From Helicobacteraceae bacterium (GTDB taxonomy: Bacteria; Campylobacterota; Campylobacteria; Campylobacterales; Sulfurimonadaceae), in the NCBI GenBank assembly GCA_013138865.1, contig WTBY01000030.1, forward strand, positions 1 through 33,126: a stretch of 33,126 nucleotides of DNA, given 5' to 3'. Position 1 is the first letter of the stretch; the number at the start of each line of letters is the position of its first letter. Made by a program: the position numbers and the translations under genes. This document shows positions 4,017-14,055 of the stretch, in pieces. Under the pieces are notes generated by a model. It saw only the letters and a list, made by a program, of their open reading frames with translations. It searched no databases and was not told where the DNA came from.

Positions 4017-5837
4017 TTAAAACTTTATTTGAACTAATTCCGAAAATACAACTGCTCTATTTTTATTATCTTTATTCATTTTAACTATTAAGTCTTTTAT
4101 TTTTTCATCTTCTAGCTCAGAACAATTATACTTTAGTGTCGTACCTATCTCTTCTATTTCAACCTCTTCAGTTGCACTTATTTTATCTTTAAAGCCAAAG
4201 CCTAACTCAATATTTTCTTTTTTAGCATACGCCAATAGAACCATCAGAAAGCCTATACTTGCATGTGAATAGTTTGAGAGTATACGATCGTAAAAGCTCT
4301 CAAATGTTTCATTCAAGTTTTTTAATCTTCTATATTCACTTACTATTGACTCTACATAAAAACGAGCAAATCTTAATGGCACGGACTTTAGTACACTATG
4401 TCCCTCTTTAGACTCACTACTTACTTTACCACCAAGCAGTATATTTACACCATACTCACTCACACCATCTACTTTAGCTTTACAGCCCTCAAAACCAATG
4501 TCTGCTAAACCATGAACACCACAACCTTTAACACAAGCTGACCAATACATTCTTACTCTTGAGTTTTCAGGAAGTTCTACATTTACGCTTAAGTACTCAG
4601 CCATCTCAATAGCATCACTCTTGTTAGGAATTACACCAAATGGGCAGTGTTCAACACCAGCACAAGCGATCAGATTATTAAAGTACGGAGTATTAACACT
4701 CTTAAACTCTTCAAATATCTCTTCTTTTAACAAAAGCTCTAGTGAGTTCTCTTGTACACCTAAAATATAGAGACTTTGAGTTGTATCTAAACGAATAAGT
4801 GAGTTACCATATTTTTTAGCCACTTCACTTACTTTTATCATAGCACCACCACTAAAAACTCCAGATGGAACTACCATATGAACAGCGTAACTACCATCTT
4901 TAAGAGCAATTTTTCCTTGATCGTTATCAGCGTTATCCAACTGAGTAAGAGTTATACCACAAGTTGCAAACTCTATTTTAGCTCGCTCTCTTACAGTTTT
5001 AGTAAACTCAGTCATTCCTACACTCTCTATAAGGAAATGAAGCCTATTTTTATTTCTATTGTCACGAAAACCATACTCTTTAAAGATCTCTAAAAGAGCT
5101 TGAAAACAGCTTTTAACCTCAGCCTCATCTTTTAAAAATAGATCAGCATTTTTTGCGATCACACCAACTTTTCCACCAAGATATAAGTTATAGCCATAAA
5201 TACCATCTTTTTGAGCTAAAACAAAACAGCAATCATTTCCAAAAACGTTACAACGGTTTGTGGTAGAACCTGTGATCGAAGCGTTAAACTTTCTAGGAAG
5301 AGTTGAGATCCACTCCCAGTTGTTTAAAAAATCATCTTGTAGATTTAAAAGTAGGTTTTGAGATGGTAAAATATTGTCAAATCCTAACTCATCAAGTGGA
5401 TCATTTAAAATATTTCTTACATTATCAACACCTGTTTGAAATGTACTCATACCAACAGCATTTAAAGCTTTTAAAATAGTAGGGATATTCTCAATAGAGA
5501 CAAACCTTAACTCACTTTGCGATCGTGTAGTTAGATCAATATAATCATTACCATATTTTTGTGCCATATAGCCAATAACACTAGCCTGTTCAGCATTTAA
5601 CTGACCACCGGGTATTCTGATCTTGATCATAAATTGTTCAGGTGTTGCTGGACGGTAGTAAATTCCAAAACATTTTAAGAAGTAGCTTTTGTCTTCATCT
5701 GGTATGCTATCAAATCCATTTTGTGCATAATAATCTAACTTATCAAATGAACTTTTTGCATCACCATCATTTTTTAGCTTCTCAATTTTATTTAGTTTTT
5801 TATTTCTCTCATTAAATGCTTCTTCCATTTTACTCAT
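4017..5837 (-). CDS. nirA: Siroheme / 4Fe-4S nitrite reductase, probably ferredoxin-dependent (NirA type)
   Basis: 606 residues. Two ferredoxin-like half domains occur (about 65-140 and 315-375). Cysteines for the coupled 4Fe-4S/siroheme centre are C392-x5-C398 (CAGVEHC) and C435-x3-C439 (CVKGC, followed by GVHGLADIGF). The KDGIYGYNLYLGG stretch matches the nitrite reductase side of the family. Expected reaction: six-electron reduction of nitrite to ammonium in the cytoplasm. Sulfite reductase is the main alternative, but the neighbouring siroheme synthase, nitrate reductase and nitrate transporter favour nitrite. The gene overlaps cysG by 8 bases, implying translational coupling. It is somewhat longer than common NirA proteins because of an extended C-terminus. 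Confidence 0.85.
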   Translation of the reverse strand: MSKMEEAFNERNKKLNKIEKLKNDGDAKSSFDKLDYYAQNGFDSIPDEDKSYFLKCFGIYYRPATPEQFMIKIRIPGGQLNAEQASVIGYMAQKYGNDYIDLTTRSQSELRFVSIENIPTILKALNAVGMSTFQTGVDNVRNILNDPLDELGFDNILPSQNLLLNLQDDFLNNWEWISTLPRKFNASITGSTTNRCNVFGNDCCFVLAQKDGIYGYNLYLGGKVGVIAKNADLFLKDEAEVKSCFQALLEIFKEYGFRDNRNKNRLHFLIESVGMTEFTKTVRERAKIEFATCGITLTQLDNADNDQGKIALKDGSYAVHMVVPSGVFSGGAMIKVSEVAKKYGNSLIRLDTTQSLYILGVQENSLELLLKEEIFEEFKSVNTPYFNNLIACAGVEHCPFGVIPNKSDAIEMAEYLSVNVELPENSRVRMYWSACVKGCGVHGLADIGFEGCKAKVDGVSEYGVNILLGGKVSSESKEGHSVLKSVPLRFARFYVESIVSEYRRLKNLNETFESFYDRILSNYSHASIGFLMVLLAYAKKENIELGFGFKDKISATEEVEIEEIGTTLKYNCSELEDEKIKDLIVKMNKDNKNRAVVFSELVQIKF

Positions 5838-7032
5838 AATTATTCTCCATATTTGGTAATATTTTTTGAAGCTCTACTACTTCTCCAAAAACTAAAATTG
5901 CTGGTCTATCAACCCCACTACAAAGCTCAACAAGTTCTTTTAAAGTTCCAACTCTTGTACTTTGATTTTCTCTTGAAGCATTAGAAATAATTGCAACTTT
6001 AGTACTCATTTGTACTTCTAACTCTGTTGCTCGTGAAAGGATCTCTTTAGCACGGCTTACACCCATCAAAACAACTGTTGTATGGTTTGGCATCTTCAGT
6101 AAATCTACCCACTCTAAGTTGACACTGTTACCTTTAAAGTGTGCAGATACTATGCTCATATTAGTTGCGTAACCTCTTGCAGTTGGTGCTATTCCTGCAG
6201 TCGCGCAACCTGCGATCGCAGAGCTTATACCTGGTATAACTTCAACCTTTATACCCTCATTAACAAGTGCGATCGCCTCTTCACTTCCTCTTCCAAATAT
6301 ATAAGGGTCACCACTCTTTAACCTTGCTATAACTTTACCTTTTAAAGCGTACTCTACAAGTAGTTTGTTTATTTCATCTTGTTTAATGGAGTGAAAGCCT
6401 TTTTGTTTACCTACCATTACTCTCTCACACTCGCTAGGAATTATCTCTATAATCTCTTGAGATATAAGATGATCTATAAAAACAACATCAGCTCTTTGAA
6501 TAATGTTATACGCTTTTATTGTTAAAAGTTCAACATCACCCAAACCACAACCCACTAAGTAGACTTGTGCAAGTGCTTTTTTGGTTTCAGGCAGGTCTAT
6601 AACTCCTGCTTTACGATCACTCATAGCTTTGTCACAAAACTCTTCTATATTTTTAGGCATGATCTTCTTTATACGATCACGAATTATCTGCGTTGCAGTG
6701 GGTGAGCTTCCAGCGGAGCTAACTGCTACTTTAAAGTTTCCATACTCTAAAAGTGAAGCAAAATAGAAGTCACAAAGTTCTGGTTTATCAACTACATTTA
6801 GTAAAAGATTAAACTTTTTTTTGTACGCTATTAAAAGATCACTTACCTCTTTAGAACCAGTTGCATCAACCACAATCTCATAATCTTCAAGATCAGTAAT
6901 TTTAAATTTAGTAACTACTGTTTTGAATTCGATCTCATTTCGTTTTAAAACAGATGCTTTGTGCTCTGCAACTACTCCATTTCCTATAAGTAATATTTTT
7001 TTATTATTTAAAACTATTGGTAATGTTTTCAT
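5830..7032 (-). CDS. cysG: Siroheme synthase (precorrin-2 dehydrogenase plus uroporphyrinogen-III C-methyltransferase)
   Basis: 400 residues. Residues 1-150 form a Rossmann-like CysG N-terminal domain with a nucleotide-binding GNGVVAEHK (variant of the usual GGGxVAxRK). Residues about 153-390 form a tetrapyrrole methylase with VYLVGCGLGDVELLTIKA, the RLKSGDPYIFGRG motif, a VIPGISSA stretch and TARGYA. It supplies the siroheme for the downstream nitrite reductase. It is shorter than E. coli CysG (457 residues), so the dehydrogenase/chelatase half is compact. It is preceded by its own predicted promoter and operator (7077-7131), so it can be expressed apart from the nitrate reductase genes. Confidence 0.9.
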   Translation of the reverse strand: MKTLPIVLNNKKILLIGNGVVAEHKASVLKRNEIEFKTVVTKFKITDLEDYEIVVDATGSKEVSDLLIAYKKKFNLLLNVVDKPELCDFYFASLLEYGNFKVAVSSAGSSPTATQIIRDRIKKIMPKNIEEFCDKAMSDRKAGVIDLPETKKALAQVYLVGCGLGDVELLTIKAYNIIQRADVVFIDHLISQEIIEIIPSECERVMVGKQKGFHSIKQDEINKLLVEYALKGKVIARLKSGDPYIFGRGSEEAIALVNEGIKVEVIPGISSAIAGCATAGIAPTARGYATNMSIVSAHFKGNSVNLEWVDLLKMPNHTTVVLMGVSRAKEILSRATELEVQMSTKVAIISNASRENQSTRVGTLKELVELCSGVDRPAILVFGEVVELQKILPNMENNYE

Positions 7033-7076: not shown

Positions 7077-7082
7077 ATTATA
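7077..7082 (-). promoter_or_regulatory. -10 box for cysG-nirA
   Basis: A perfect TATAAT on the minus strand, about 45 bases before the cysG ATG. The end of the hexamer (7077) is exactly 45 bases from the centre of the palindrome at 7113-7131. Confidence 0.5.
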
Positions 7083-7112
7083 TTACTTATTTTGTGGTAA
7101 TTAATTTTTGAA

Positions 7113-7131
7113 TTGATTAAAATTCAATCAA
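7113..7131. promoter_or_regulatory. Candidate operator 3 of the nitrate-assimilation regulon
   Basis: TTGATTA AAATT CAATCAA, with six of seven arm positions symmetric. It is the same size and half-site as the two sites at 11032-11088. It lies in the 104-base gap between nasA and cysG. A terminator role for nasA is less likely, because no T run follows the stem on the minus strand. Confidence 0.55.
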
Positions 7132-7136
7132 GTTTT

Positions 7137-9410
7137 CTATAAAGTTGCCTCTTTATCTTTGATCACTATATTTAGCTCTTCAACTTTTTGATGTACTAAC
7201 TGTACACTTACCTCAGCTTCACTTATTTTAATTCCTTCTGGAACTTTTATGGAGTGCAGTTGTATTGCGCTTTGTTTAAAGTTTGGCTCACCAGACTTTG
7301 GACAAAATTCTGAGTTAGTTAAAGTATTTACTAATTCTGTATTAAAATGAAATGGTACAAAGACACTTCCATCTTTAACTTTTTGAGTTACTTTTACAAT
7401 TACATTTTCTACTCTTCCATTAATAGAACTTAGAGCTATACGATCGCCACTTTTCACCTCTAATATTTGTGCATCTTTAGGGTTTAACTCAACCCATGCT
7501 TCTGGTGCTAAGTCATCTAAAATAGCTATACTTTTTGTTTTAGTTCTTGTGTGCCACTGCTCAACTGTACGACCTGTATTTAACATAAGCGGAAAGGCTT
7601 TACAAACATCACTTGCAAGAGGTAACCACTCAACACAAAGCAGATTTGCTTTTTTATTTGGTGTACTAAAAGGCATATTTTCACTATATAGTCTAGCTGT
7701 TCCTTTAGGTGAAGCTTCATTACAAGGCCACTGAATACCTTTTAACTCTTCGATCAGTTTATAACTCATTGCTGAGTAGTCACAAAGCTGATTTTTGGTT
7801 ACTCTTTTGAACTCTTCAAAAGCATCTTTAGGCTCACTCCAACTTGGATAAATAAGATCTTTAAAACCAAAATAACCTGAAAACTCTAAGAAAATAGCAA
7901 AATCGCTTTTAGAGTTACCAAAAGGTTCAACCGCTCTGTTTGCTTTGTTACAACGCCTCTCTGAGTTTGTGTAAGTTCCCTCTTTTTCACCCCATGTTGC
8001 AGCAGGAAAAATAACATCTGCTTCAAGTGCTGTGTCACTCATAAAAGCGTCTTGTACAACTAAAATGTCTAGCTTTTTAAGGGCTGAACGTAGCTTCTTT
8101 TGGTTTACAAAACTAACAAGTGGGTTAGTAGCTATGATCCAGAGTGCTTTAATCTCACCACGATCAATAGCATCAATAATCTCAGCATATTTATAACCAC
8201 GCTCAGTTGGAACTAGTTCAACTGGAACATTAACTAACTCTGCATACTCACGAGCTACTTCTTCATCTCCAAAAGGACGATAACCTGGTAGTGAAGATGT
8301 AAAACTACTCTCACGAGATCCCATAGCATTACACTGTCCTGTAATTGAGAATGGTCCAGTTCCTACTCTACCGATCTGTCCTGTTAAAAGGTGTAAGTTT
8401 ACAATTGCACTTACCGTGTCAGTTCCTAATGCTGACTGATTTACTCCCATAGTCCAAGCACTAAGTGCTGCTGGAGCTTTTACAAACTGACGAGCTAACT
8501 CATAAAGAGTCTCAACTTCTATGCCTGTTATGTTTGAAACTTCTTGTGGCGGGTAGTCTTGAAGATGTTTTTTAAGATCTGATAAACCATTAGTTGAAGC
8601 TGTTATATACTCAGTATTTTCCCAACCCTGTTCTAAAATAATGTACGCTAATGTGTTAAAAAGTGCTAAATCTGTTCGTGGATTTATAGGAATAAAAAGA
8701 TCAGCCATCTGTGCTGTTTTAGAGACTCTAGGATCAATCACAACTATAAAAGGTTTTTTCTTATTTTTATTTATATGAAGTTTTAAAATTGGGTGGTTGT
8801 CTGCTATATTCGCACCTACAAGTATGATCATATCTGCATATTCAAAATCTTCGTAAGAACTAGGAGGTCCATCACTTCCAAAAGATTGCTTGTATCCTGC
8901 AACAGCACTTGCCATACATAATGTTGTATTTCCATCAAAGTTATTTGTTTTAAGTCCTAGTTGAGCAAACTTACCAAGAGCATAAAACTCTTCAGTTAAC
9001 AGTTGCCCTGTTGATATGATCGCTACTGATTTACTTCCTTTCTCTTGTGCAACTCTTTTAAAAGTGTCACTTGTTTTTTTAAAAGCTTCATTCCAAGTTA
9101 CATCTTTTCCATCTATTTTAGGTTCACTTATACGATCAGGTGAGTTTATAAGTTGGTGTTCACTTAAACCCTTAGGACATAGTGTCCCTTTATTTACAGA
9201 GTGTGTAGGATTACCTTTAGTATAAACAGCTTTGCCATCTTTTACACCAATGTAAAGACCACAACCAACACCACAATAACCACAAGTAGAAAATACCCAT
9301 TTATCGGGCTTTTTATAATCACTTATCATTCCAAACTGCGGATCAGAACTTAGTTTGTACTTCTCTGCTTTAATATCAAAACCTAAAAAATCTTTTAATT
9401 TACTTATCAT
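7137..9410 (-). CDS. nasA: Molybdopterin-dependent nitrate reductase catalytic subunit, assimilatory NasA/NarB-like
   Basis: 757 residues. The N-terminal 4Fe-4S motif is C43-x2-C46-x3-C50-x27-C78. The probable molybdenum ligand is C165 in TTLCMASAVAGYK, followed by FGSDGPPSSYEDFEYAD, typical of nitrate reductases of the NasA/NarB/NapA group. The usual Asn-x-Arg before the Cys is Asn-Thr-Thr here. No twin-arginine leader is present, so the enzyme should stay in the cytoplasm, unlike NapA. It overlaps the FeS/anchor gene by 4 bases (ATGA), so the two are very likely one complex that reduces nitrate to nitrite. With NarK, CysG and NirA alongside, the function is most likely assimilatory. Confidence 0.85.
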   Translation of the reverse strand: MISKLKDFLGFDIKAEKYKLSSDPQFGMISDYKKPDKWVFSTCGYCGVGCGLYIGVKDGKAVYTKGNPTHSVNKGTLCPKGLSEHQLINSPDRISEPKIDGKDVTWNEAFKKTSDTFKRVAQEKGSKSVAIISTGQLLTEEFYALGKFAQLGLKTNNFDGNTTLCMASAVAGYKQSFGSDGPPSSYEDFEYADMIILVGANIADNHPILKLHINKNKKKPFIVVIDPRVSKTAQMADLFIPINPRTDLALFNTLAYIILEQGWENTEYITASTNGLSDLKKHLQDYPPQEVSNITGIEVETLYELARQFVKAPAALSAWTMGVNQSALGTDTVSAIVNLHLLTGQIGRVGTGPFSITGQCNAMGSRESSFTSSLPGYRPFGDEEVAREYAELVNVPVELVPTERGYKYAEIIDAIDRGEIKALWIIATNPLVSFVNQKKLRSALKKLDILVVQDAFMSDTALEADVIFPAATWGEKEGTYTNSERRCNKANRAVEPFGNSKSDFAIFLEFSGYFGFKDLIYPSWSEPKDAFEEFKRVTKNQLCDYSAMSYKLIEELKGIQWPCNEASPKGTARLYSENMPFSTPNKKANLLCVEWLPLASDVCKAFPLMLNTGRTVEQWHTRTKTKSIAILDDLAPEAWVELNPKDAQILEVKSGDRIALSSINGRVENVIVKVTQKVKDGSVFVPFHFNTELVNTLTNSEFCPKSGEPNFKQSAIQLHSIKVPEGIKISEAEVSVQLVHQKVEELNIVIKDKEATL

Positions 9411-10972
9411 CTTTGTCTCCCTACAAAAAAGCTACCTGCCATACCTAAACAGGTAGATGTTGCATAAAATAGCATTCGATCGATAAACTCACTTACACTC
9501 ATAATAATTAATGATATAGCCAAAATTATAATGGCATTTGAATACTCCCCTGCTCCAACTAAAATCGTTACAAAAAGTGGTAACGCTAAAGCACCTAAAA
9601 TAAAAGTAGTAACCCTAACTTTAGTATATATAGGAAAATATTCGTTATACAGTCTTAGTGTTTTAGCTATAGGCTCTTTATTAATTTTATGGTTATACAA
9701 ATCTCTTCTATCTTCATAACTAAAGAAACCATGAACAACTGCGATCATCATAGAGAGTGCTAAAAGTGAAATAGAGGCTGTATGATTTTGTGTCATAAGT
9801 GAAATAAGTGCTATTAAAAATAGTCCTATATAACCTGTTGAGAAAAACTTTAACATAGTAGTACGTCTATTCCAAGATGGACGAGCAGCTAACATATAGA
9901 TCTTAGACTGAGAATAGATCCCTGCAACACCGATCACTAAGGTTATAAACTCAAATAGTGTTCGTGTAAATATTGGCACTTCTAAAAAGTATAAAACTGT
10001 ATTAGCACTCATTAGTATGGTAAAAACTCCTAGTAAAATAGCCTCACGTGAAAGCCAACTTGTTTTATAGTTTTTCATAGCACTAAGTGCCATAAATGGA
10101 CGACCTAAGTGTAATGCAGATAGTGGTAATCCTAAAGCAGCAGGTACAACAACAGCAATCGCCATTAAAAAGTTAGGCTCTTCAAAACCTATATTTGACA
10201 GAAGTGTTCCTAGAAATAGTGCTAAAAAAGCTCCTAAAGATATTTGAGTTAAAACAGTCATAAAAACTAATGGCAACTCTTTGTGAAAAGGTTTTAAGTG
10301 GTGTTCATCTGCTGAGTTTAACTCTTCAGGTAACTCCTGAGGTAGTGTGTAGCGTGTTGTAGAGTTTGAAACACGTGCGTCTGTAAGGTTTGGCATATTA
10401 CCTTGAGTGTCTATGTCACCATCTAACCACTCTTCAACATTTACAGCCTCGATCTCAATTGCACCACTTGGACAAGCTTGAACACATGCTGGACTCTGCC
10501 CAACTTCAAGACGTTCATGACACATATGACACTTAGTAACTATATTTCTCTCTTCATGAAAAGTTGGAACTTCATAAGGACAGTTCCATGTACAGTATTG
10601 ACACCCTATACAGACATCATCGTTATGAAAAACGATCCCATTATCAAGCTTTATGTAACTGTTTGTTGGACAACCTTTAAGACACTCTGGATCTATACAG
10701 TGGTTACAACTCATTGAGTTAAAGAGTTGAGTAGTGTAAGGAAACTCTCCACCCTCCATCTCTCCAACACGACGCCACTTTATATCTGCTGGGTTATTAT
10801 TTTGTTCATTACAAGCTACTTCACAACAGCGACAACCTATACAAGCTATTGCATCAAAGTGAAAGCGGTACTGTTCATTATCTTGCAAAACTGGAAGCTC
10901 AATTGAGTAGTTACCACACTGCTTATCAGTCTCAGCCTTAAAATCTATAAAGCTCTCTAGTGGAGTTTTCAT
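9407..10972 (-). CDS. Fused 4Fe-4S electron-transfer and DmsC-like membrane anchor subunit of the nitrate reductase
   Basis: 521 residues. Residues 40-170 carry sixteen cysteines in the order expected of a DmsB/NrfC-type protein with four clusters: C44/47/50/54, C89/92/97/101, C121/124/127/131 and C148/151/163/167. After a linker (about 175-230), residues 233-520 are hydrophobic with about eight predicted membrane helices, like the DmsC quinol-oxidising anchor. No signal peptide or Tat motif is present, so the FeS domain faces the cytoplasm. The protein probably passes electrons from menaquinol to the catalytic subunit downstream. The B-C fusion in a single chain is unusual compared with the separate DmsB and DmsC subunits of enterobacteria. 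Confidence 0.85.
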   Translation of the reverse strand: MKTPLESFIDFKAETDKQCGNYSIELPVLQDNEQYRFHFDAIACIGCRCCEVACNEQNNNPADIKWRRVGEMEGGEFPYTTQLFNSMSCNHCIDPECLKGCPTNSYIKLDNGIVFHNDDVCIGCQYCTWNCPYEVPTFHEERNIVTKCHMCHERLEVGQSPACVQACPSGAIEIEAVNVEEWLDGDIDTQGNMPNLTDARVSNSTTRYTLPQELPEELNSADEHHLKPFHKELPLVFMTVLTQISLGAFLALFLGTLLSNIGFEEPNFLMAIAVVVPAALGLPLSALHLGRPFMALSAMKNYKTSWLSREAILLGVFTILMSANTVLYFLEVPIFTRTLFEFITLVIGVAGIYSQSKIYMLAARPSWNRRTTMLKFFSTGYIGLFLIALISLMTQNHTASISLLALSMMIAVVHGFFSYEDRRDLYNHKINKEPIAKTLRLYNEYFPIYTKVRVTTFILGALALPLFVTILVGAGEYSNAIIILAISLIIMSVSEFIDRMLFYATSTCLGMAGSFFVGRQR

Positions 10973-10998
10973 AAAAAACCTTTTATTTATATAGTTAA

Positions 10999-11004
10999 AG
11001 TATA
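10999..11004 (-). promoter_or_regulatory. -10 box for the nitrate reductase operon
   Basis: TATACT on the minus strand, 27 bases before the ATG at 10972. Its end (10999) is exactly 45 bases from the centre of the palindrome at 11032-11056. Confidence 0.45.
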
Positions 11005-11031
11005 TCTACTTAATTATCACTATTAATAAGT

Positions 11032-11056
11032 ATAATGATTAAAAAATAATCATTAT
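11032..11056. promoter_or_regulatory. Candidate operator 1 of the nitrate-assimilation regulon
   Basis: ATAATGATTA (11032-11041) and TAATCATTAT (11047-11056) are exact reverse complements around five A residues. The core TGATTA-N5-TAATCA is shared with the site at 11070-11088. It faces the leftward nitrate reductase promoter. FNR is unlikely, because TTGAT and ATCAA would be nine rather than four bases apart. A Fur-like box is a weaker alternative. Confidence 0.6.
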
Positions 11057-11069
11057 TTAAATTGTTCTA

Positions 11070-11088
11070 TTGATTATTTTTTAATCAA
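11070..11088. promoter_or_regulatory. Candidate operator 2 of the nitrate-assimilation regulon
   Basis: TTGATTA (11070-11076) and TAATCAA (11082-11088) are exact reverse complements around five T residues. The centre is 35 bases from that of operator 1. It faces the rightward narK promoter. Confidence 0.6.
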
Positions 11089-11118
11089 CAATTAGTAATT
11101 ATTCTCTATTTTAATATA

Positions 11119-11124
11119 TATAAT
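11119..11124 (+). promoter_or_regulatory. -10 box for narK
   Basis: A perfect TATAAT, 33 bases before the narK ATG. Its end (11124) is exactly 45 bases from the centre of operator 2. A second TATAAT at 11137-11142 would place the start of transcription inside the ribosome site and is less likely. Confidence 0.5.
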
Positions 11125-11156: not shown

Positions 11157-12437
11157 ATGGCAGGAATTAAAGATTTAAAAGGTCAAGGACACACACCAAC
11201 GCTGTTTATGGCTTTTTTATATTTCGATATGAGTTTTATGGTTTGGACAATGTTAGGTCCATTAAGTACAGAGATTTCTGAGGCATTAGCTCTTGCTGGT
11301 CACATAATGAGTGCAGGTGAGAAAGCTACGCTTCTTTCACTTCCTATTTTATCAGGTGCAATTTTAAGAATTGTGTTAGGTTTTGGTGTTGATAAGCTTG
11401 GTGCTAAAATAACAGCAATGATGTCACAGATGGTTGTTATTGCTGCTCTTTTAACTGCCTATATTATGGGTGATAGTATAACTTATAACGCTCTTCTTTT
11501 AGTGGCACTTGGTCTTGGTTTTGCAGGGGCTTCTTTTGCTGTTGCACTACCACAAGCTGGTCAGTGGTATCCACCTCGCCTTCAAGGTGTCGTTCTTGGT
11601 ATTGCCGGAGCTGGTAACATAGGTGTTGTAATTGACTTTCTTTTTGCTCCAAAAATTGCTGAGATCTGGGGTTGGTCAGCTGTATTTGGTGTAGGTGCTG
11701 CAATGGCAATAGTTGTTTTAATAGCTTACGCATTTATAGCAAAAGATGCTCCTGAATCAGTTTACAAAGCTAACCCTAAAAAACTTAGAGATTATGCAAA
11801 ACTATTAAAAGATAAAGATACATGGTGGTTCTCACTATTTTACGCTATTAGCTTTGGTGGTTTTGTTGGTTTTGCAGGATACATGAAAGTTTACCTTATG
11901 AATACATATAGTGTTGATATGGGTGCTTTTGGTGTAGATGTTTTAGATGAGAGTAACGTTAAAGTTGTTGCTGGTTACTTTGGTGCTCTATGTATATTTG
12001 CAGGAGCAGTTCTTAGACCAGTTGGTGGAAGCACCGCAGATAAGATAGGTGGTATTAAGTCACTATACTTTTTTTACGGTATGGTTGCTTTATTTGTAAC
12101 AATTACGGCGACAGTTGAGTTACCATTTTTTGTAGCTATATTTGTTCTATTTTTAATTATGGCAAACCTTGGTATGGCTAATGGTGCAGTTTTTCAACTT
12201 GTTCCTCAACGTTTTGGTAAAGACATAGGTATTATGACTGGACTTGTTGGTTGTGCTGGTGGTCTTGGTGGAACTGCATTAATTAAAACTCTAGGATGGA
12301 GTAAAGGTGCATTTGATGGCTATACTGCAGGATTTTTAATATTCGCAGCTGTTGTTGTTATAGCACTAATAGGACTAGGTATGGTTAAGACAAGATGGAG
12401 AACAACATGGGGAGTACAAGCTGGTGGAAAAATATAA
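11157..12437 (+). CDS. narK: Nitrate/nitrite transporter, major facilitator superfamily NNP family
   Basis: 426 residues with about twelve predicted membrane helices. The GLGFAGASFAVALPQAGQWY and GVVLGIAGAGNIGVV segments in the first half are Gly-rich helices of the nitrate-nitrite porter type. The GGSTADKIGG loop is typical of the second half. An AGGAG ribosome site lies just before the ATG. It probably imports nitrate for the divergent reductase operon. It shares a control region with that operon, and its last 14 bases overlap the PP2C-kinase gene that follows. Direction of transport and substrate preference cannot be told from sequence. Confidence 0.9.
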   Translation: MAGIKDLKGQGHTPTLFMAFLYFDMSFMVWTMLGPLSTEISEALALAGHIMSAGEKATLLSLPILSGAILRIVLGFGVDKLGAKITAMMSQMVVIAALLTAYIMGDSITYNALLLVALGLGFAGASFAVALPQAGQWYPPRLQGVVLGIAGAGNIGVVIDFLFAPKIAEIWGWSAVFGVGAAMAIVVLIAYAFIAKDAPESVYKANPKKLRDYAKLLKDKDTWWFSLFYAISFGGFVGFAGYMKVYLMNTYSVDMGAFGVDVLDESNVKVVAGYFGALCIFAGAVLRPVGGSTADKIGGIKSLYFFYGMVALFVTITATVELPFFVAIFVLFLIMANLGMANGAVFQLVPQRFGKDIGIMTGLVGCAGGLGGTALIKTLGWSKGAFDGYTAGFLIFAAVVVIALIGLGMVKTRWRTTWGVQAGGKI

Positions 12438-14055
12438 CTCTATAATTAGTTCTTGCTTTGGTTTAGCCAAAGCAAATGAGCTTTTAAGTGATGATGCTTA
12501 TGAAGTCAAAAGTTTTAATAATACAACTGTGGCTGTTCTTTGTGATGGTGTTGGAAGTGCTGAGCATGGAAGAGAAGCGGCGCAACACATAGTAACTTCA
12601 CTTCTCACAAACTTTAAAAATAGACCAATGAGCTGGTCTATAGAAAAATCTCTCTTAACTTTTATAGAAAATATCAACCAAATCCTTTACAATGAATCAC
12701 AAGAGAAGTATGAAGCTATTGAGTATGTTTCAACTTTATGTATAGCTGTTATTGAGGATGGTAGACTTTACGGTGCCAACGTTGGTGATTCAAGAATTTA
12801 CCTACTTCGTGATGAAAAACTTACTCAATTAACACAAGATCACATTCTTAAAGAAGAGGGAATGGATCATGTACTTACTCGTGCTATGGGACTCTGCCTT
12901 GATACTACTGCTTACTACTTTGAAAATAATTTACTTGTAGGTGATAAACTTCTTTTATGTAGTGATGGTCTTTATAATACTCTCTCAGATGAAGAGTTGC
13001 AAAAAGGTATAGCATCAAATGCGACTACTTTAGTTAAAAAAGCTACTAATAGAATGAACGATGACTTGCATGATGACACATCAGCAATAACACTTTTTAT
13101 AGATGAGATAAGTGGAATCATCTCACTAAAATCACAGCCACTTCCTATACCTAAAACTTTAAAAAAAGGTGATCTTATAGATGGTTACACTCTTCAAAAA
13201 TCACTTATACAAAACGATCGTACTTGGTTAGTTTCAAAAGATAATGATGAGTTTGTACTTAAATTTCCACCTCTTGAAGCTATAGAGGATGAAATATTTT
13301 TAGATATATTTGTAAAAGAAGCATGGAATGCTTCACGCCTTAAAGCTGGTTTTTTTGCAAAAGCATGGATCCCTCACGATCGCAGTAGTCGCTACTATGT
13401 AATGGACTATGCACAAGGTGTGACACTAAAAGAGTATATAAAGAAAAAGCCTATTCATATTGATGACTCTATTTTACTAGCAAAGTTTCTTCTAAAAATG
13501 AATCAATTTTTATTAAAGTTTGATCTAGTTCATGGAGATATAAAACCTGAAAATATTATAGTTAACTCGCGTGATAAAAAACTAGTTTTTAAAATGATTG
13601 ACTATGGCTCGATCGTAGAGCTATTTTCTATAAACTCAAAAGCAGGCACTCCATCATACTTGGCACCTGAACGTTTTAAAGGAAGCTCCATAAATGAGCA
13701 GAGTGAAATTTTTTCTATAGGTGTTACACTTTATGAAGCACTAACTCTTAAGTACCCTTATGGTGAGATAGAGCCTTTTCAAAACCCTTATTTTAAAGAG
13801 GCTAAAAGTGTTAAAAAACTAAATAACAATATACCTCTATGGCTAGAGAGTATAGTCTTAAAATCAACTAGTGCTAAATGCGATGATCGCTATGGAAACT
13901 ATAGTGAGATGTTATATGATTTAGAACATAGCCAGAAGGTTAAACCATACTTTTTAAAAGAGACTCCACTTCTTCATAGAAATCCTCTTTTAGTATATAA
14001 AATTGGTTTTATTGCAATGCTTATAGTTAATGTACTTTTAATGATAAAGAAGTAG
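12424..14055 (+). CDS. PP2C-type protein phosphatase fused to a Ser/Thr protein kinase, C-terminal membrane helix
   Basis: 543 residues, starting with GTG inside the narK gene (14-base overlap). Residues 1-230 are a PP2C domain with DGVG (41-44), GDSR (121-124), SDGL (180-183) and DDTS (217-220), so the metal-binding aspartates are present. Residues about 255-505 are a kinase domain with Lys280, Glu299, the catalytic loop HGDIKPEN (370-377), DYG (393-395) and APE (414-416). The loop has HGD, not HRD, so this is a non-RD kinase. Residues 525-541 form a terminal membrane helix. A PP2C-kinase gene beside a nitrate transporter also occurs in Pseudomonas nitrate-assimilation clusters, from memory. 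Control of the transporter or reductase by phosphorylation is a reasonable but unproven role. Confidence 0.88.
   Translation: MEKYNSIISSCFGLAKANELLSDDAYEVKSFNNTTVAVLCDGVGSAEHGREAAQHIVTSLLTNFKNRPMSWSIEKSLLTFIENINQILYNESQEKYEAIEYVSTLCIAVIEDGRLYGANVGDSRIYLLRDEKLTQLTQDHILKEEGMDHVLTRAMGLCLDTTAYYFENNLLVGDKLLLCSDGLYNTLSDEELQKGIASNATTLVKKATNRMNDDLHDDTSAITLFIDEISGIISLKSQPLPIPKTLKKGDLIDGYTLQKSLIQNDRTWLVSKDNDEFVLKFPPLEAIEDEIFLDIFVKEAWNASRLKAGFFAKAWIPHDRSSRYYVMDYAQGVTLKEYIKKKPIHIDDSILLAKFLLKMNQFLLKFDLVHGDIKPENIIVNSRDKKLVFKMIDYGSIVELFSINSKAGTPSYLAPERFKGSSINEQSEIFSIGVTLYEALTLKYPYGEIEPFQNPYFKEAKSVKKLNNNIPLWLESIVLKSTSAKCDDRYGNYSEMLYDLEHSQKVKPYFLKETPLLHRNPLLVYKIGFIAMLIVNVLLMIKK

Follow-up and report, generated by a model that had tools for sequence, protein, structure and literature searches.

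The nitrate assimilation locus described here raises the question of which regulator acts through the palindromes lying before its three promoters, and how far the control exerted by that regulator extends. The stretch of DNA analyzed as a whole, referred to as the window, comprises 33,126 nucleotides and corresponds to contig C29 of a 3.03-Mb genome (G000).

Palindromes at three promoters of the nitrate assimilation genes

Three palindromes had been proposed from the sequence alone, each 45 bases from the end of a -10 hexamer, and all three were found at the coordinates given for them (Table 1). The distance from the center of the site to the end of the -10 box is exactly 45 bases at all three promoters in the window. 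The 17-base core, allowing at most one mismatch, occurs four times in the window compared to an expected 0.35, and none of 100 shuffled sequences reached four matches. Moreover, when shuffled sequences were examined for the -10 spacing, the three promoters shared one offset in only 0.04% of cases. When the 19-base pattern was allowed 3 mismatches, there was no excess in the window (9 found, 8.7 expected). Since such a loose scan is uninformative, the case for the sites rests on their geometry and conservation.

Table 1. Sites, -10-like boxes and genes of the nitrate assimilation locus (window coordinates).
Feature	Coordinates	Strand	Remarks
Palindromic site before nas (nitrate reductase) operon	11032-11056		core TGATTAAAAAATAATCA at 11036-11052; center 11044; orthologous sites before nasB in relatives
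-10-like box TATACT, nas operon promoter	10999-11004	-	45 bases from site center
Palindromic site before narK	11070-11088		TTGATTATTTTTTAATCAA, perfect; center 11079; conserved before narK across the family
-10-like box TATAAT, narK promoter	11119-11124	+	45 bases from site center
Palindromic site before cysG-nirA	7113-7131		TTGATTAAAATTCAATCAA, one mismatch; center 7122; relatives with sites before cysG and nirA
-10-like box TATAAT, cysG-nirA promoter	7077-7082	-	45 bases from site center
NasB (name used here), iron-sulfur and DmsC-type membrane subunit of nitrate reductase, first gene of nas operon	9407-10972	-	Pfam PF04976, PF13247
NasA, molybdopterin catalytic subunit of assimilatory nitrate reductase	7137-9410	-	Pfam PF00384, PF01568; NasC/NasA models
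CysG, siroheme synthase, first gene of cysG-nirA operon	5830-7032	-	Pfam PF00590; TIGR01469 above cut-off
NirA, assimilatory nitrite reductase	4017-5837	-	Pfam PF01077, PF03460
NarK, nitrate transporter	11157-12437	+	TIGR00886

Two features of the genes themselves were observed. In the nas operon protein encoded at 9407-10972, a DmsB-like iron-sulfur domain and a DmsC-like membrane-anchor domain are fused, and full-length orthologues of the fusion occur in relatives having nasB. Directly 3' of narK, at 12424-14055, lies a gene for a PP2C phosphatase-protein kinase fusion with an orthologue in 33 of 40 narK regions.

Conservation of the site and its promoter geometry

Orthologues of NarK are present in 96 of 151 genomes of the family. 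Forty narK regions were taken from relatives, and nas, narK, cysG and nirA were mapped on them. The palindrome was present upstream of most of the narK and nasB genes. It is retained at orthologous promoters of relatives, and the proposal thus withstood the refuting condition set for it, a lack of the palindrome in related species. The geometry was evaluated in 122 promoters with a site scoring at least 12/14, taken from all loci and with no preselection on the -10 distance. A TATAAT-like hexamer ended 45 bases from the center in 47 of these promoters and 46 bases from it in 32, while the background averaged about 4 per offset and the best other offset gave 13. The proposal of one regulator common to the three promoters and acting with a fixed geometry is supported by this 45- or 46-base spacing in relatives.

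The site profile was derived from a second set of promoters, preselected for a -10 box at 44-46 bases. This analysis yielded TG-NN-TA-N5-TA-NN-CA with an A/T-rich center; the T-G is conserved at about 97-100%, the C-A at 100% and the inner TA mostly at 97-100%. A -35 element was not seen in the aligned promoter profile of this preselected set. The sites of FNR (TTGAT-N4-ATCAA) and CRP (TGTGA-N6-TCACA) have a different spacing, the half-sites here being arranged as TTGAT-N9-ATCAA with an odd overall length, and both regulators were rejected, in agreement with the sequence-only reading.

There are two flavors of the site with the same geometry, TTGATTA, which is the main one, and TTGTATA-N5-TATACAA. 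Both can co-occur in a single genome (G139), and they could belong to two regulators. The exact pattern TGATTA-N5-TAATCA is rare, with 0-6 copies per genome. The spacer served as an internal control: 18 of 19 sites with an A/T spacer were intergenic, and 5 of 6 matches with a GC-containing spacer fell inside genes.

Additional elements were observed upstream of narK. Many relatives (L036, L041, L042, L049, L054, L055, L070) have a pair of sites, or of palindromes resembling the site, separated by 33-34 bases, an arrangement that suggests tandem dimers. In three other regions (L047, L048, L061), the leader between the -10 box and the narK start contains a conserved inverted repeat of the type CTTAATGAAAAATTAAG. 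This repeat goes with genomes having the TTGTATA flavor and is possibly a further, RNA-level control.

A general nitrogen regulon

When relatives were scanned upstream of nas, narK, nirA and the glutamine and ammonium genes, as had been suggested as a check, the palindrome was found. Besides nas and narK, the site precedes amtB, glnK, amtB2, glnA and genes for outer-membrane porins and ABC transporters in relatives. In the genome of the window, it lies before glnA and before amtB (L104), the glnA site having only a weak -10 box at 44-46 bases. The core NtrC regulon consists of amtB, glnK and glnA, to which the alpha- and betaproteobacterial NtrC regulons add nas, narK and nirA (PMC5343134). 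Sites are found at the promoters of the core NtrC targets glnA, amtB and glnK. Because these three genes are preceded by the same site, the regulon is general and not specific to nitrate, and its initial description as a nitrate assimilation regulon was too narrow. The palindromes are control sites of a general nitrogen-starvation/assimilation regulon in sulfur-oxidising Campylobacterota.

An alternative considered was that the palindromes act in RNA, as hairpins or terminators. They are inverted repeats, and the copy at 7113-7131 directly follows the nasA stop codon. However, the stems would have just one G-C pair, the -10 box lies at a fixed distance, and the sites stand before amtB, glnA and narK whatever the upstream gene. 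The fixed geometry and the varied upstream genes led to the rejection of this explanation, which is hardly credible.

Genes for the outer membrane were also noted. A tonB-like gene lies 3' of amtB-glnK-amtB2 at five loci (L094-L097, L099), and outer-membrane protein genes are preceded by sites at three (L101, L105, L288), hinting at nitrogen-controlled uptake through the outer membrane.

A truncated NtrC as candidate regulator

The helix-turn-helix families searched in G000 gave three HTH_8 matches, one LysR protein and one MerR protein. One HTH_8 protein is encoded outside the window, between slyD and fabD (C39, 22163-22915), and its best NCBIfam score, obtained through the DNA-binding end, was to NtrC. 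The product has 251 residues and starts at the AAA+ domain; its HTH_8 match, a helix-turn-helix of the Fis/NtrC type, was above cut-off. Alignment to NtrC with hhalign gave an E value of 6e-31 over 239 columns and covered NtrC positions 149-479 only. The receiver and the L1 stretch are missing from the profile alignment, and an N-terminal receiver with a phosphorylatable Asp is absent from the candidate when it is aligned to NtrC. None of 37 sequences in one set and none of 28 in another had the GAFTGA loop, and the Walker A motif GxxxxGK was present in 35 of 37. The AlphaFold model had a pLDDT of 90, and its Foldseek neighbors were NtrX, NtrC1 and PspF. By the homology of its AAA+ and DNA-binding domains, the candidate is a member of the NtrC family.

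The recognition helix reads GLNRNTLRKKI, and its N, R, T, L and K are invariant in 37 sequences. The Asn-Arg pair of this helix presumably corresponds to Asn84-Arg85 of Fis. Arg85 of Fis contacts guanines at +/-7 (PMC4784862). Furthermore, the site fits the Fis core sequence, GNNNAWWWWWTNNNC (PMC12655184).

The nearest named relatives of the G000 protein are those of Sulfurimonas and Sulfuricurvum, followed by Sulfurospirillum and Sulfurovum, which places the source genome within the Campylobacterota and near Sulfurimonas; outside the Campylobacterota, the closest relatives found were mostly GAFTGA-less NtrC proteins of Rhodobacterales. The gene was found in 44 of 160 genomes of the class, 12 of them in the family of the window and the rest across many other families; no listed f2 or f3 genome yielded it. 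The exact site pattern occurred in 18 of 32 genomes with truncated ntrC and in 3 of 20 without it, a comparison confounded by the fact that genomes without the gene mostly also lack these nitrogen genes. The truncated NtrC is most likely the protein that binds the palindromes. As the sequence-only reading had stated, the regulator is not encoded beside the nas genes of the window; it had also been described as unknown, and for this the truncated NtrC now provides the best candidate.

Other binders of the Fis/NtrC type were considered, namely FlgR and an orphan response regulator adjoining ispF (L116 694-1581, contig C43 of G000), which we take from gene order to be HP1021/CemR-like. Both are present in G000 and have HTH_8-type C-termini. 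However, the helix-turn-helix match of the orphan regulator is partial and falls below the curated cut-off in the whole-protein scan, and none of the neighborhoods examined showed its gene next to nitrogen genes. At E 1e-40, neither FlgR nor any other complete sigma-54 activator was detected in G153, G240 and G161, all of which have sites before amtB, and FlgR was rejected on this basis. It is unlikely that either protein is the regulator.

The sites could also be bound by a LysR-type protein, as in the nitrogen LysR regulators elsewhere. The sole LysR protein found in G000 (L117) has a relative in 38 of 41 genomes tested, and the TTGTATA-N5-TATACAA flavor fits the LysR T-N11-A box. The earlier statement that no LysR box fits holds for the TTGATTA sites and fails for this second flavor. 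However, the main-flavor sites read A-N11-T, no nitrogen genes adjoined L117 in the neighborhoods examined, and its orthologue is missing from G249, G157 and G260. A perfect TTGATTAAAATTTAATCAA is nevertheless located 45 bases from the amtB -10 box of G249. The LysR protein was accordingly rejected and is very unlikely to be the regulator.

A MerR regulator of the GlnR/TnrA kind would resemble Bacillus TnrA, a nitrogen activator of the MerR family whose palindromic sites, TGTNANAWWWTNTNACA, are centered near -50; these are similarly AT-rich, of odd length and similarly placed. However, the sole MerR protein found in G000 adjoins dnaJ and is of the HspR type, so that this candidate was rejected as extremely improbable.

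Gene neighborhood and promoter of truncated ntrC

In other families, truncated ntrC adjoins amtB and glnK (L178-L181, L183-L186, L189, L196), and at one locus it occurs with amtB (L182). In G265 (L187 6133-9413), the gene directly precedes glnD, which encodes the PII uridylyltransferase, and overlaps its start. The order in Sulfurovum is site, regulator, companion, site, amtB, glnK. Clustering of the genes in the 40 narK regions revealed no recurrent regulator; G033 alone has truncated ntrC there, beside the nas cluster itself (L066 2794-3552). In Sulfurimonadaceae, including G000, the gene is flanked by slyD and fabD, with neither a site nor nitrogen genes next to it, and the link between regulator and regulon in this family therefore rests on orthology.

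The regions upstream of truncated ntrC, some from overlapping loci, contained a site scoring at least 12/14 in 8 of 51 cases, compared to 0.3 expected. All eight sites are centered 25-34 bases before the start codon of the regulator, while those of most target genes are about 70-100 bases away. The proximity of the site to the start of its own gene suggests that the regulator may repress itself.

A regulator of some other family could control the same target genes, the search in G000 having covered part of the helix-turn-helix families. The shape of the site, the gene linkage, the sites at the regulator's own promoter and the NtrC ancestry all favor the truncated NtrC, and a regulator of another family is unlikely.

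Three loci (L183 4615-5451, L187 5234-6097, L297 1248-2105) encode a membrane protein of some 285 residues whose gene adjoins truncated ntrC or is preceded by a site. One member has a weak Cache-like match, and the protein is possibly a sensor.

The companion protein

At the loci with nitrogen neighbors, truncated ntrC has a companion gene that overlaps it or faces it and encodes about 230 residues. The companion protein was found in all 20 genomes examined for it, G000 among them (C5, 30546-31220). Scans with Pfam and NCBIfam gave no match to it. The structure model had a pLDDT of 78, and Foldseek matched it to PAS and histidine-kinase catalytic domains, including those of NtrB (1r62). Comparison with NtrB by hhalign gave an E value of 8e-8 and a probability of 94.5 over 78 columns. 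There is no invariant His in two alignments of the companion (A2 and A4), and the model contains no DHp hairpin, the PAS domain running straight into the catalytic remnant. The companion thus appears to be a kinase-dead remnant of NtrB, made up of a PAS domain and a degenerate kinase catalytic domain.

Proposed mechanism

The sites, their geometry, the target genes, the NtrC ancestry of the protein and its gene neighborhood were established by computation. It is quite probable that the sites are bound by the truncated NtrC acting as a general regulator of nitrogen assimilation. The protein keeps the AAA+ scaffold of NtrC, the ATP-binding loop and the Fis/NtrC-type helix-turn-helix, while the receiver and the GAFTGA loop, the part in contact with sigma-54, have been lost. 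As a dimer, it would recognize TG-NN-TA-N5-TA-NN-CA from a predicted position near -52 of promoters of the housekeeping sigma-70 type, which have a good -10 box and no recognisable -35 element. Nitrogen limitation would then lead to the activation of nas, narK, cysG-nirA, amtB, glnK and glnA, and the site 25-34 bases before the start codon in the regulator's own promoter would allow autorepression. The nitrogen signal would probably come from PII (GlnK, GlnD) by way of the companion NtrB remnant, a route for which the gene neighbors are the evidence. A dimer at -52 of a promoter without a -35 element fits a direct activator of the sigma-70 type, and the activator near -52 postulated from the sequence alone is probable.

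In a bolder form, to which we give slightly less than even weight, environmental Campylobacterota may possess an NtrB-NtrC pair without any phosphotransfer, in which an NtrC lacking receiver and GAFTGA acts at sigma-70 promoters from -52 and is controlled by direct contact with PII and a kinase-dead remnant of NtrB.

Comparison with known systems

The NtrB-NtrC system of Escherichia coli shares the core regulon of glnA, amtB and glnK, the Fis-type DNA-binding domain and the G-N13-C frame of the site, the E. coli NtrC site being TGCACC-N5-GGTGCA. It differs in that the protein described here has no receiver and no sigma-54 contact loop and is associated with promoters of the sigma-70 type having one proximal site. 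Bacillus TnrA works alike but belongs to an unrelated protein family, of which no such member was found here. Vibrio VpsR is an NtrC-family protein without GAFTGA that acts at sigma-70 promoters. Caulobacter NtrC is likewise of the NtrC family, lacks GAFTGA and uses sigma-70 promoters (PMC10274813). Unlike the candidate, the two have retained a receiver or a domain resembling one, and VpsR is not a nitrogen regulator.

A close likeness is that to the NtrC of Rhodobacter capsulatus and other Rhodobacterales, an NtrC-family protein that has lost L1/GAFTGA and controls a nitrogen regulon at housekeeping promoters. In Rhodobacter as in Caulobacter, NtrC without GAFTGA works at sigma-70 promoters (PMC10274813). 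Compared to R. capsulatus NtrC, the receiver is also gone here, the length is about 250 residues instead of 455, the site has its center near -52, and a partner kinase carrying a histidine for phosphorylation was not detected. A receiver is retained in the NtrC proteins without GAFTGA that have been described to date, a point against the proposal.

A 2016 survey of regulons omitted the epsilonproteobacteria because it detected in them no orthologue of the regulators it targeted, NtrC included (PMC5343134). In the literature searched on nitrogen control in Sulfurimonas and Epsilonproteobacteria, which largely excluded subscription journals, no description of this regulator was found. The regulon is real and wider than first claimed, and its regulator is most likely a novel form of NtrC.

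With one protein, one 19-base site and one fixed promoter distance, the question is directly testable. If the proposal is right, the missing nitrogen regulator would be named for Sulfurimonas, Sulfurovum, Sulfurospirillum and their relatives, some of which are abundant at hydrothermal vents, and a two-component system would have been cut down to apparently non-phosphorylating remnants while its regulon was kept.
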